A DNA stretch of 64,000 nucleotides from Diaporthe sp. PMI_573 (Eukaryota > Ascomycota > Sordariomycetes > Diaporthales > Diaporthaceae). The stretch covers positions 310,001-374,000 of the forward strand of contig JAJTUP010000005.1 in the NCBI GenBank assembly GCA_021399435.1. The letters run 5' to 3'. A model generated the notes under the pieces. It did no database searches. It worked only from the letters and a program-made list of their open reading frames with translations, and was not told where the DNA came from. Below are positions 7,493 through 64,000 of this stretch, one piece after another; within the stretch, counting starts at the first letter, position 1, and every line of letters starts with the position of its first letter. Both the position numbers and the translations under genes were made by a program.

Positions 7493-9751
7493 TCATCGTA
7501 TTTCACAAGTAGTCATAACACTCTGACCTTCAAAAATGCTCTCAAACCCATCTTGAGGCAAGACGCCCTCACCTTGTTCATCCGCACCCACTTCATTGAG
7601 AAACACAGTTGCCTTCCCCGCTCGCGTGTATACAAAATGATCCGGGTCCTCACAGCGTAAGAGAAGGAAGAGCCAGCTCCCGGTTGATCTTGATATTTCC
7701 AGAAAATCAATATCTTGGTGGGAAGGAATGTTCTGAAACCCGTCCTGGGTCCTGATCCATGTCTATGGCCAGGCCGTCACCGGCTTGCTTGGGCCCTAAC
7801 GGGTTGCTGAACACTCTCCATGCATCTCCATTGCGCAAGTAGATAGAAACAGCGGCATCGGTCCATTTCAGCAGAGAATGCAGTACCCTGCCTCGCAAGA
7901 CCAACTTGCTGCTCTGAAGAACACCAGACGTCGTGTTCCCCAGATAGCTGCAGTTCGCCTCAAGAACCTTTGCCCTAGGAACAGTAACGCCGTTATGCAC
8001 GTAGGCAATATTGCTACCGATATTCAGGGATGCCCACGACCATGTGGGCAGAGAAAACGGCCTTTCAAGCCTCTCCTTGCTCTTTGGAGACCCATGCGAT
8101 AGGCTATTGGATATCGAAAGTGGATCATCAAGCAGGGACCCTGACCACAGCCCGGCGAGATAGGTCTCCCCTACGCGAACGCGCTAGAATTTTTCAGCGA
8201 TAGCTCCAAGAGCCGGTAGTCTGTCTCGTGGCATCGTGACTGCCAGTGCCGAATACTCAAAAACGACTATGCGCCTCCAAGTGTCTGCGGCCTGCCGAAC
8301 TGTACTATCCTTGGCCTGGGTATCATCTCTGGAACGTACAGGAAGGAAATTCTCCTCCTTTATTCTTGGTCCAGAGACTGATCTCTTCTGTACGCTCATG
8401 CTACCCAATGATATATCCTCTTCAGAAGAGCCTTCCGCTGGAGAGCCAATTCTGGTCTTTAGGAAAATATCTGTCTTGTCCAAGTTGACCTCGGCGGGTT
8501 CTCCTGGGCAGTAGTCTGGGGTGGCGCCACACTCGCACTTAGCGTTGTTAAGGCATTGGAAGATCATCTCGCTCTCGGTGAAGAATATTACACGGGGCGA
8601 AATGGTGCGCTCTTGATAAGCCCATGCTCGACTGAGGGGTGGGTAACGGCGACACGTATCGGCGAAAGACCCCTTGATTTTGCCTGCATCCACGCCGTCG
8701 AGGTAATGATTCCGCCGCAGATACAGGGGATAAATGGCTTGATCAATGCGCAACTTAGCTAATAGGACCGATTCTTGCCTTATGGATATGTTGCGGAGTC
8801 CAGAGGTGCTGTCGCGCCCAGTAAGAGCCGCTAATGTTAGGTACGAGTTTTTATAGACGGCGTACATTTTGCCCGCTTCCTGCTGCCAGTCCTTTTCGTC
8901 TTCTTGGATGACGCAGATACTATCGATCCAAAGGTACTGTACTCCGAGACTGAGAGTAAAAGCAGCCGCATCTTGGAATGTGAGTGGCAGTGCGTCCCAT
9001 GGTATTCTCGTTTTATTCCGAGCCAAAGTCTCGACAGTTGTGATGCAGGCAGGCCTGTGGTGGCCCCAGCAATAGCTCAGCGCGACATACAACGATCCCG
9101 ACCGTACAGAATGGGAGTCTTCGAGTCGAACGTCTAATCCCTTCCAGCCCGGCTGAAGGTTTATCAGCCTGGTAGGCAAGAAAGAGTCGCCGCTCTGTGA
9201 CTGGCAGAGCTGATGTGAACACGCGCATTCTGCAAGACGGTCTTGTGCCCACTTTGATGAGCTTCCACATAGCATTTCATCGCTCGACATCAACTGCCTG
9301 CCCACGTTGTAGCGGTCAATATCTGAGTCTGGGGTATCGGAAGAAATAGAGATAGACTGCCAGATGTGATTCAGCCCATCCAAGGTAACCGAGGAATAGG
9401 TGTGTGCGCCAAGACTGAGCTTCTCTCTGCCACTGACCTGCGCTCGATTTCAGCTGTCTTGAAAAGTGTGCACCGGAGAATCTCACACGAAGCGCACTTG
9501 AAGGGCTCTTGTGTACAGTCTTTGCCAGTGAGCCTGTGATATGGCGGGCCAGCGAACAAATCCTCGGGGTCACCGGTCCACTCGCAGAGAGGACATTCGA
9601 GGGGTGAGGTTTCTGGAACTAGTCTCCCATTCTCGTCCCATCGGTGGGGCAAGTCGATGAAGGGAACTGCGGCAAGGGGCTTCCCCTGTCCTTCCGGGCA
9701 CTTGGCTTCGTCTAGGCCGTTCGATGATGATGAATGAGCAGAAGTCATCAT
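7493..9751 (-). pseudogene. HET-domain protein gene, disrupted
   Basis: Heterokaryon-incompatibility (HET) gene. HET proteins act in fungal allorecognition and can trigger cell death when activated. Exon 1 starts at ATG 9751 and contains a Cys-rich lead (CPLCEWTG, CASCEILRC). The next exon, from about 9356, holds the HET core: YVALSYCWGHH, the block around LWIDSICVIQEDEKDW, then SRAWAYQERTISPR. Two lesions break the frame. An in-frame TAG at 8186-8184 follows PALGAIAEKF, yet the same frame continues with the family motifs TYLAGLWSG and LPTWSWASLN. A 7-base-period near-duplication at 7741-7754 shifts the frame, after which the coding continues to a stop at 7495-7493. The intron after exon 1 is in phase only with a weaker GTGGCA donor; the better GTCAGT donor is off by one base. 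It is most likely a pseudogene. A truncated product ending at 8184 is the alternative. Confidence 0.82.
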
Positions 9752-61154: not shown

Positions 61155-64000
61155 ATGGGGCACAATGGGAGAGATAACGGAAAGTACGAAGCGGTAGGTT
61201 AATCTACACAGAAGATAGGCTGGAGGTTCTTATAAACAAGTCATAATCTCTGACCTAGGTGTTTTTGGTGATGATATAGGAGGTAAGTATTACTCCCTGC
61301 CTCCCATGCCTCCCCTGCCTCTCAAGGCTTGTTTCTAATCTGGGTGTTTTTGGTGGTAATATAGCGTGTAAGTATTACTCCCTGCCTCCCCTGCCTCTTA
61401 AGGCTTGTTTCTAACCTGGGTGTTTTTGGTGGTAATATAGGAGGTAAGTATTACTGCCTGCCTCCCCTGCCTCTTAAGGCTTGTTTCTAACCTGGGTGTT
61501 TTTGGTGGTAATATAGGAGGTAAGTATTACTGCCTGCCTCCTCTGCCTTTCCTGCCTTTTAAGGCTTATTTTTAATCTGGGTGTTTTTTTTGGTAATATA
61601 GTTAGTAAGTATTACTCTCTGCCTCCCTTACCTCTTAAGGCTTGTTTCTAACCTGGGTGTTTTTGGTGGTAATATAGCCTGTAAGTATTACTCTCTGCCT
61701 CCCTTACCTCTTAAGGCTTGTTTCTAACCTGGGTGTTTTTGGTGGTAATATAGCCTGTAAGTATTACTGCCTGCCTCCCCTGCCTCTTAAGGCTTATTTC
61801 TAACCTAGGTGTTTTTTTTGGTAATATAGGGAGTAAGTATTACTGCCTGCCTTCCCTGCCTCCCCTGCCTCCCCTGCCTCTTAAGGCTTGTTTCTAACCT
61901 AGGTGTTTTTGGTGGTAATATAGTGGGTAAGTATTACTCCCTGCCTCCTCTGCCTCTAAAGGCTTGTTTCTAACCTAGGTGTTTTTGGTGGTAATATAGG
62001 AGGTAAGTATTACTACCTGCCTCCCCTGCCTCCCCTGCCTCTTAAGGCTTGTTTCTAACCTAGGTGTTTTTAGTGGTAATATAGTGGGTAAGTATTACTT
62101 CCTGCCTCCTCTGCCTCTAAAGGCTTGTTTCTAACCTGGGTGTTTTTGGTGGTAATATAGGAGGTAAGTATTACTCCCTGCCTTCCCTGCCTCTTAAGGC
62201 TTGTTTCTAACCTGGGTGTTTTTGGTGGTAATATAGCGTGTAAGTATTACTCTCTGCCTCCCCTGCCTCTAAAGGCTTGTTTCTAACCTGGGTGTTTTTG
62301 GTGGTAATATAGTTAGTAAGTATTACTCTCTGCCTCCCCTGCCTCTAAAGGCTTGTTTCTAACCTGGGTGTTTTTGGTGGTGATATAGCCTGTAAGTATT
62401 ACTACCTTCTCAGGCAATCTTTAAGGATACATCTATAACGAAGAATCCTGGGAATGTATAGTGGGTAAGTTCTTGTTTTAATCCTGATCATCTTAACCTG
62501 CTAAACATCCCTAGCTTGCTCAAGATCAATGGATACGTCAACATGATCTTGCTCTCAAATTCAAAGCTACTTGGCCTCGTGATTGTCTTTCCTTGGACGA
62601 CTTTCCAGACCACTGCCAAGGAGTACGCCAATCTACCATCTCGTCTTCCTCTGGTTCTCCATGTGGTTCATGCACCCTTTGTCAAGCTCTTGAGACCTCT
62701 AGTCTCAGGTTTGGTGCTAATAAGAGTATGTTGGATCAACCTTTTAACTTTTAAACAGCTTGTACCAATTCTAATTGGTTCTAGACCTTCGCCACCTCTA
62801 TTACGGCTTGCCATTACCTCTTCAAGCGGGGTCTCCTGATCATTTCAAGCTGGTGAAGGAGTGGCTGCACCTTTGTGACCGGGGGAAATGCGGAGCAGAA
62901 ACTGCTCAGTGCTTCTCCAAATCGCCACCGGGTGTGTTTCCCACCAGACTCATTGACCTCGGCTATACTCTCAAACTAGGCCGATTCCAATTGGGTAACT
63001 TCAGTTGGGTCAAGATTCGTCTTTCTCCCAAAGAGCACCTACCTTACATCGCGCTTTCGCATTGCTGGGGCGATTTATCTACTGATCTGAAGGGGAAATG
63101 GAGTACAACACGCGAAAACTTAGAATCTCGCACCAAGACTGGGTTTCATATCAATATTCTTCCAGCCACCTTTCGCGACGCAGTCACAGTCACACGAAAA
63201 CTTGGCATACGATATCTCTGGATTGACTCACTCTGCATCCTACAAGGCGACAAAGATGACTGGGCATCTGAAGCAGGAAAAATGCAAGATGTCTTCCGCG
63301 GAGCCTATTGCACCATCGCTGCTACCTCAGCTCAAGACTCTACTAAAGGGTTTCTAGCCCGTCCTGCGCCAGAGCCTGGCAAATGGGTCTGTACTACTCA
63401 AGCCGGCAATCCATCGACATTCACTACTACCTTCATGGACAACTTTCAAGTTGATGTGCTGGGAGGGATCCTGAACACGCGAGCCTGGGTCTTACAAGAA
63501 CGGGCCTTGTCAAGGCGAACACTTCACTTTACAGATCGACAGACCTACTGGGAATGTGGTGGTGGTGTGCGATGTGAAACTCTCACATATATGCGCAAGT
63601 AAGTGAAGTACCCTCCCTATTAATAGGTTGTGCTTTTTGATCTATATAACAGCAGTGGGTTCCTAACTCTCTATAGTTATGGAAGCATTCTGAGTGATCC
63701 AGAGTTTCCTAGGTCTCTGGAAGATGCAAACCTGCAGAAAAAGTTTGAGATACCTCACAAACTCATCACTCGCTATTGTGAATTAGGCCTTACGAACGAC
63801 ACAGATAGGGGTACAGCTATCAGGTCACTGATAACTGCTATGGCCAAAACACTCAATACACCAGTTGACTTTGGTGTATTTCATAAGTTCACTCATCGAT
63901 CTCTTCTGTGGCGCAGAAACCAAGAGGGTCCCATGGTACAAATTCAATATCGTGAACAGGTGCCTCCTCCGTCTTGGTCGTGGGAGTCATACATGGGTAA
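61155..64000 (+). CDS. HET-domain protein with sixteen 3-base exons at its 5' end, runs off the window
   Basis: ATG 61155 opens a 13-codon exon (61155-61193, MGHNGRDNGKYEA). It is followed by sixteen triplets: 61280, 61365, 61441, 61517, 61602, 61678, 61754, 61830, 61924, 62000, 62085, 62161, 62237, 62313, 62389 and 62462 (first base of each). They read EREELPPGWEWERLPW. The body continues at 62515-62725, 62785-63598 and 63677 onward. All joins are in phase. The body shows YIALSHCWGDL, IRYLWIDSLCILQGDKDDW, CTIAATSAQDSTKGFLARP and WSWESYMG, the standard HET motifs, plus an N-terminal region rich in Cys (CGSCTLCQ). It should be an incompatibility-type HET protein and is otherwise undamaged. The downstream end is not in the window. 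The microexon reading is from splice-site logic and frame continuity and needs RNA evidence. Confidence 0.8.
61194..62514 (+). repeat. Tandem array of near-identical introns separated by 3-base exons
   Basis: Seventeen candidate introns in a row. Fourteen (61283 to 62388) are near copies: ten are 73 bases, three are 82 and one is 91. Each starts GTAAGTATTACT, has a C/T-rich CTGCCTCCCCTGCCTC tract, then TTAAGGCTTGTTTCTAAC with a branch-like CTAAC, and ends GGTGGTAATATAG. The steps of 9 bases come from extra TGCCTCCCC-like units. The flanking introns (61194-61279, 62392-62461 and 62465-62514) are diverged. The unit resembles introner-like elements reported in some fungi, but here they sit in a direct tandem row exactly one codon apart. 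A plain minisatellite that happens to carry splice sites is the alternative. Confidence 0.85.

Follow-up and report, generated by a model that had tools for sequence, protein, structure and literature searches.

Sixteen consecutive exons of a single codon each are predicted to be spliced one by one at the start of a HET-domain gene of Diaporthe sp. PMI_573, and the N-terminal stretch encoded by them is, on balance, likely to be the hypervariable segment used for recognition by a cell-death protein of allorecognition or immunity. The gene lies at the end of the window, the whole 64,000-nt stretch of DNA analysed here. The contig of the window is labelled C163; paralogue labels such as C183, C8 and C28 denote other contigs of the same genome.

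Organization of the predicted HET gene

A motif read of the window revealed a strict alternation of 16 [AG]TATAG acceptors and 16 GTAAGT donors between 61280 and 62464. The acceptors end at 61279 to 62461, the donors start at 61283 to 62465, and the gap from an acceptor to the next donor is exactly 3 nt. The alternation had been described in an earlier note on this DNA, and the triplets read here are identical to those given there. The boundary of exon 1 required a small correction: exon 1 occupies 61155-61193 and intron 1 starts at 61194.

Features of the predicted gene. Coordinates are those of the window, with the strand in brackets.

61155..61193 (+): exon 1, MGHNGRDNGKYEA, 13 codons; the ATG and the 39-nt length are identical across the five intact genes compared
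61194..61279 (+): intron 1, GTAGGT...ATATAG; sequence differs from the array introns, but the 3' end resembles them
61280..61282 (+): microexon 1, GAG (E)
61283..62388 (+): fourteen near-identical introns, between microexons 1-15; 5' end GTAAGTATTACT, CTAAC-like branch site, 3' end ATATAG
61365..61367 (+): microexon 2, CGT (R)
61441..61443 (+): microexon 3, GAG (E)
61517..61519 (+): microexon 4, GAG (E)
61602..61604 (+): microexon 5, TTA (L)
61678..61680 (+): microexon 6, CCT (P)
61754..61756 (+): microexon 7, CCT (P)
61830..61832 (+): microexon 8, GGA (G)
61924..61926 (+): microexon 9, TGG (W)
62000..62002 (+): microexon 10, GAG (E)
62085..62087 (+): microexon 11, TGG (W)
62161..62163 (+): microexon 12, GAG (E)
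62237..62239 (+): microexon 13, CGT (R)
62313..62315 (+): microexon 14, TTA (L)
62389..62391 (+): microexon 15, CCT (P)
62392..62461 (+): terminal inner intron, 70 nt, of differing sequence; more similar to the corresponding intron of other genes than to the array introns
62462..62464 (+): microexon 16, TGG (W), beyond the homogenised array; C183, C8 and C28 likewise have TGG, C153 has TTA
62465..62514 (+): outer intron GTAAGT...CCCTAG, sequence unlike the array introns
62515..62725 (+): exon LAQDQWIRQHD..., start of the conserved body
62726..62784 (+): ordinary intron GTATGT...TTCTAG
62785..63598 (+): exon with the HET domain (PF06985 at about 63045-63500)
63599..63676 (+): ordinary intron GTAAGT...CTATAG
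63677..64000 (+): last exon, continuing beyond the window; stop near 64439

The joined triplets read EREELPPGWEWERLPW. The introns were earlier described as near-identical; this holds for 14 of the 15 inner introns, which are 73, 82 or 91 nt long (steps of 9 nt), and not for the fifteenth or for the two outer introns. Elsewhere in the window, the pattern [CT]AG-NNN-GTRAGY has no match on the plus strand and one on the minus strand. A second HET match is present at 8529-9233 on the minus strand (36% identity to query residues 104-336); with that one strict 3-nt gap on the minus strand outside the array, no such array accompanies it.

When exon 1, the 16 triplets and the HET body are joined, the predicted spliced gene forms an intact frame of 624 aa, and the in-frame link from exon 1 to the HET body through the triplets is as originally proposed. 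The HET domain (PF06985) occupies residues 187-338 with an E value of 4.2e-30 and a score of 105.5 bits, against a curated cut-off of 22.5. It was the sole domain found in the domain search of the 624-aa protein, which gave no NACHT or NLR domain. Unspliced read-through from the ATG meets a stop after 15 codons, and the frame is truncated if any single intron among the 17 that precede 62515 is retained. Omission of all sixteen microexons leaves the frame open at 608 aa. In this frame the exon-1 ATG is followed by no other until residue 266. As that residue lies inside the HET domain, initiation beyond the array would remove about half of the domain; this reading was considered and rejected.

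The triplets as predicted exons

The length of the putative exons was examined in ten array regions. The gap in [CT]AG-N(k)-GTRAGY was 3 nt in 148 cases, and gaps of 0-2 and 4-10 nt occurred once in total. In the same regions 93 gaps of 11-30 nt were counted, the commonest being 21 nt (49, all in C34) and 24 nt (18); these are provisionally read as a second TAG within the same units. Intron length in six arrays varies from 59 to 91 nt and takes all residues modulo 3, while the exon is constant at 3 nt. None of the 148 triplets is a stop (P 5e-6 and 2e-4 under two nulls drawn from array DNA; P 2e-4 with positional base frequencies for 125 triplets), P values which assume independent triplets, duplicated units being not fully independent. 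Five intact genes with 16, 16, 11, 8 and 23 triplets give full spliced frames of 624-703 aa.

The first 1.5 kb of 13 further HET paralogues was scanned with a looser donor, GTRNGY. The 3-nt gap was found 34 times and any other gap of 0-30 nt at most 5 times, with 3 on the opposite strand. At least three upstream 3-nt gaps are present in 8 of these 13 paralogues and none in three. At L050, L053, L057, L059 and L061 the introns between 3-nt exons are about as alike as shuffled sequences (0.49-0.71 versus 0.48-0.67 for 16 pairs, with one shuffle per pair). The single intron pair of L063 is more alike than its shuffled control (0.75 versus 0.58), and introns are still alike at L052 (0.89) and C161 (0.93-0.99). 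The occurrence of 3-nt exons between dissimilar introns in diverged paralogues indicates that the 3-nt size outlasts the tandem likeness. In a still looser scan of the diverged paralogues one matched triplet was a stop (TAA, weak donor, L058). The short 3-nt-exon runs of L050, L053, L057, L058, L059, L061 and L063 often have an early tyrosine codon and a proline codon as the last.

The gap spectrum, the absence of stops, the five intact frames and the diverged paralogues thus support the earlier reading of the triplets as a series of 3-nt microexons near the 5' end of a HET gene, splicing being predicted from the DNA.

Array loci across the genome

A pattern of two successive 3-nt exons between GTAAGT...TAG introns was searched in the 83.7-Mb genome. 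It gave 91 matches and its reversed control 0; the window array is far beyond chance. The matches fall in 11 loci on ten contigs, and 9 of the 11 adjoin a HET match; the two exceptions are a C139 relic and a truncated array near 521 kb of C153. In all, 150 HET matches were scored among 470 candidates in the genome. The triplets read directly in each array, counts that depend on the genome assembly, number 16 in the window, 16 in C183, 11 in C8, 23 in C28, 8 in C153, 9 in C136, 7 in C161, 52 in C34, 3 in C206 and 3 in C139. The introns of the C34 and C161 arrays differ in sequence from the C163 type. The 3' end of the window introns, with at most three mismatches, has 54 matches in the genome, all of them within five HET-linked arrays and two small relics.

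Several of these loci are decayed or incomplete. The array-bearing HET copies at C136:840757-843012 (L033, L044) and C206:27946-31770 (L045) carry many stops, and their TpA/ApT values of 1.23 and 1.38, versus 0.54-0.81 in seven other copies, resemble a repeat-induced-mutation composition. An orphan of about 2.5 array units lies on the minus strand at C20:29566-29823 (L035), as if a piece of an array had moved; no C20 entry is among the HET matches listed. The C139 relic (690784-690929, minus strand, L070) has three 3-nt exons, and among the matches listed its nearest HET is 19 kb away. A complete array-less copy was sought among close HET copies; the copies on C172, C12 and C200 align with C163 only in the part that follows exon 1 and the array, and so are uninformative here.

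Homogenised introns and variable triplets

Differences between units were compared within six arrays, one strongly diverged intron having been removed beforehand from each of five. Introns differ on average by 0.039-0.111 per site and triplets by 0.53-0.73, the triplet to intron ratio being 6-14. Among 23 pairs of identical introns, the next triplet is identical in 9 and different in 14. When nearest relatives were determined for the array introns of the five intact genes, 60 of 64 (ties counted) had theirs in their own array, while the terminal introns had theirs in another gene in 5 of 5 cases. In the decayed copy C136 the nearest relative is in the same array for 4 of 6 introns, and its last intron is also closest to its own array. 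The introns evolve in concert within arrays. The earlier note had held that different triplets between near-identical introns argue against a simple duplication of one unit. Tandem duplication is involved, introns being closest within their own array; it is the triplet that escapes homogenisation.

The window gene was also compared with C183. At a dS of 0.048 over 582 codons, the two genes differ at 2 of 39 nt in exon 1 and at 0-6% of sites in the four non-array introns, yet at 15 of the 16 triplets. The dN/dS of the body is 0.86 for this pair and 0.33-0.72 in the other four comparisons. Purifying selection on fixed codons combined with intron-only conversion was rejected, as these near-identical paralogues share just one of the 16 codons. 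Repeated codon words, expected if blocks of units duplicate together with their triplets, exceed shuffles in C28 only (3-codon words, uncorrected P 0.014 in 12 tests). Linkage between triplet and intron is likewise strong in C28 only and weak in C163, C183 and C34 (uncorrected P 0.03-0.04, on one side).

Public protein models and homologues

Public models at four array loci (P0001, P0002, P0038, P0045) either begin beyond the array (two carry the label partial) or translate intron ends into repeated peptides; the C161 model, P0045, has the peptide LLTLVVFGDI at the array position. Similar features were seen in homologue models of other fungi. An exon-1-like stretch is present in Fusarium oxysporum and Dactylonectria (EKDHGEY, EKGEY), and peptides resembling read-through intron ends are present in Fusarium solani (LLTLVVPGDV, LLTMVIFGDI) and Dactylonectria (DMIADPVVFGGDV). 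Taken by themselves, these protein models suggest that arrays may also occur in the Fusarium and Dactylonectria homologues.

Two N-terminal searches returned four proteins and one, the latter being the window locus's own model. Among the best 120 of 3849 matches, whose N-termini were scanned (30 were viewed in full), no clear case of a transcript-derived protein with the spliced peptide was seen. Homologues with nothing like the peptide had been proposed as a refutation; such absence is not a valid one, because the peptide is hypervariable between paralogues.

Discussion

The ordinary spliceosome would remove each intron of the array in turn. Since two spliceosomes do not fit together on an exon of 3 nt, the introns would leave one after another, and each turn of this ratchet would leave a single codon behind. 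Among introns that are interchangeable, unequal exchange and conversion could insert, delete and reshuffle codons with the frame never broken; exchange would do the frame no harm, given that the introns resemble one another and the exons are complete codons. Diversifying selection would then retain changed codons, while the introns would be continually re-homogenised and the array would so be kept competent for recombination. The varied peptide may set the specificity of HET-domain release leading to cell death. HET genes form a highly expanded family in filamentous fungi; their domain is able to induce cell death and often occurs on allorecognition determinants (PMC10197012). A specificity segment appears to be the most economical role, since the peptide lies just before the conserved N-terminal part of the HET body and HET domains are tied to cell death and allorecognition. 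According to the same source, few HET genes act in allorecognition (in P. anserina, 5 of 125), so the window gene may serve another recognition role and the non-self which is sensed may be another species.

The fuller reading has an even chance of being right: in these HET death proteins the N-terminal specificity segment would be built of single codons set as cassettes between interchangeable introns, so that recombination adds, drops or reorders residues without harm to the frame, introns are re-homogenised and codons are driven apart. As parts of this reading, such arrays are likely to be widespread in Pezizomycotina and would have been missed so far because gene finders cannot place 3-nt exons.

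The main rival, compatible with the same DNA, is alternative splicing: the microexons would generate many in-frame N-termini per individual, with germline hypervariability secondary. Each triplet is a whole codon followed by the same GTAAGT donor, so any subset can be skipped in frame, down to the 608-aa form, and the Tuber NACHT-ANK family is a precedent as reported in PMC4986451, PMC3689799 and PMC9815663. This explanation is considered unlikely, for by itself it leaves unexplained the great excess of triplet over intron difference, both between and within arrays. Of similarly low probability is a spliced-in spacer whose sequence is indifferent. The bias of the triplets to R, E, D, W and L (102 of 148), the spread in length from 8 to 52 codons across arrays and the fast-changing gene body of the C163/C183 pair all agree with such a linker. 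Exons free of constraint would, however, change at the rate of the introns and not 6-14 times faster, and would not yield 15 of 16 codon differences at so low a dS; stop-free triplets held at exactly 3 nt also speak for some constraint.

The recombining, selected array is set against two further explanations that treat the repeat as non-coding or as mobile. TRF scores the window array as a tandem repeat, the joint from exon 1 to 62515 is also in frame, and the public models at four array loci omit the array or take introns as exons; all this would fit a minisatellite inside one large intron (61194-62514), with triplets that are never exonic. Such an arrangement is very improbable, as a repeat evolving neutrally would not vary most at the triplet, hold 148 gaps to a length of 3 nt, be free of stop triplets, or retain exons of 3 nt where the paralogue introns are dissimilar. 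Least probable of all is the repeated insertion of a mobile intron into one coding stretch. Introner-like elements are known in fungi (PMC4457414), and the near-identical introns of this fungus and the small C20 orphan could be attributed to them; the 54 matches to the intron 3' end are, however, confined to HET-linked arrays and relics and are not scattered across other genes, and the array introns group by array.

The earlier note knew of no description of a run of sixteen 3-nt microexons. Sixteen is not the longest run: the C34 paralogue has 52, and tens of codon-sized (3-bp) microexons together with alternative splicing are reported for the expanded NACHT-ANK family of Tuber melanosporum (Iotti et al. 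2012, as cited in PMC4986451, PMC3689799, PMC9815663 and PMC10197012). Arrays of 3-bp exons are thus already known, and the HET array of the window is a new variant. Going by these citing accounts, both systems have many consecutive 3-bp exons (here 16, and up to 52 in paralogues, as judged from sequence alone) in an expanded family of putative non-self receptors of a filamentous ascomycete, for which diversification of the recognition segment is proposed. In Tuber the C-terminal recognition domains of NLRs are concerned and alternative splicing is reported, whereas here the segment is N-terminal in HET-domain proteins with no NACHT found, splicing is predicted and the variation is seen between paralogues in DNA.

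In the Podospora NWD genes het-d and het-e, near-identical WD40 repeats undergo concerted evolution and carry hypervariable codons under diversifying selection (PMC1805685, PMC12222747). As those sources describe these HIC repeats, the likeness lies in homogenised repeats, paralleled here by introns nearest to their own array, and in a few hypervariable codons within conserved repeats, which set recognition in Podospora and are paralleled here by the triplet to intron ratio. The Podospora repeat encodes a WD40 blade of an NLR, whereas here an intron is repeated and the variable codon is the sole coding part; no WD40, ANK or TPR module per unit was found in the window array, each unit encoding one codon, and no NLR domain was found. 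The window array combines features of Tuber and Podospora, in that homogenisation affects the intron and hypervariability takes up the entire exon.

Series of very small exons that yield variable proteins are also a feature of the micro-exon genes of Schistosoma mansoni, which have exons of 3-81 bp and introns of up to 5 kb and encode secreted proteins (PMC10526429); the abstract of that paper is silent on homogenised tandem introns. In the filamentous ascomycete Trichoderma, Xlr2 is described as having a single regulated, functional microexon (PMC11121469) and no array, unlike the window gene. In the open-licence literature, searched by titles and the starts of abstracts, no earlier account of a HET gene with arrays of 3-nt exons was found.

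The present finding points to a variable segment that is absent from the public models seen. The arrays would provide a frame-safe route to changing a protein one residue at a time. With up to 52 consecutive 3-nt exons they would also be a hard test for splicing, and through RNA reads and the comparison of isolates the origin of fungal recognition diversity may be made testable.
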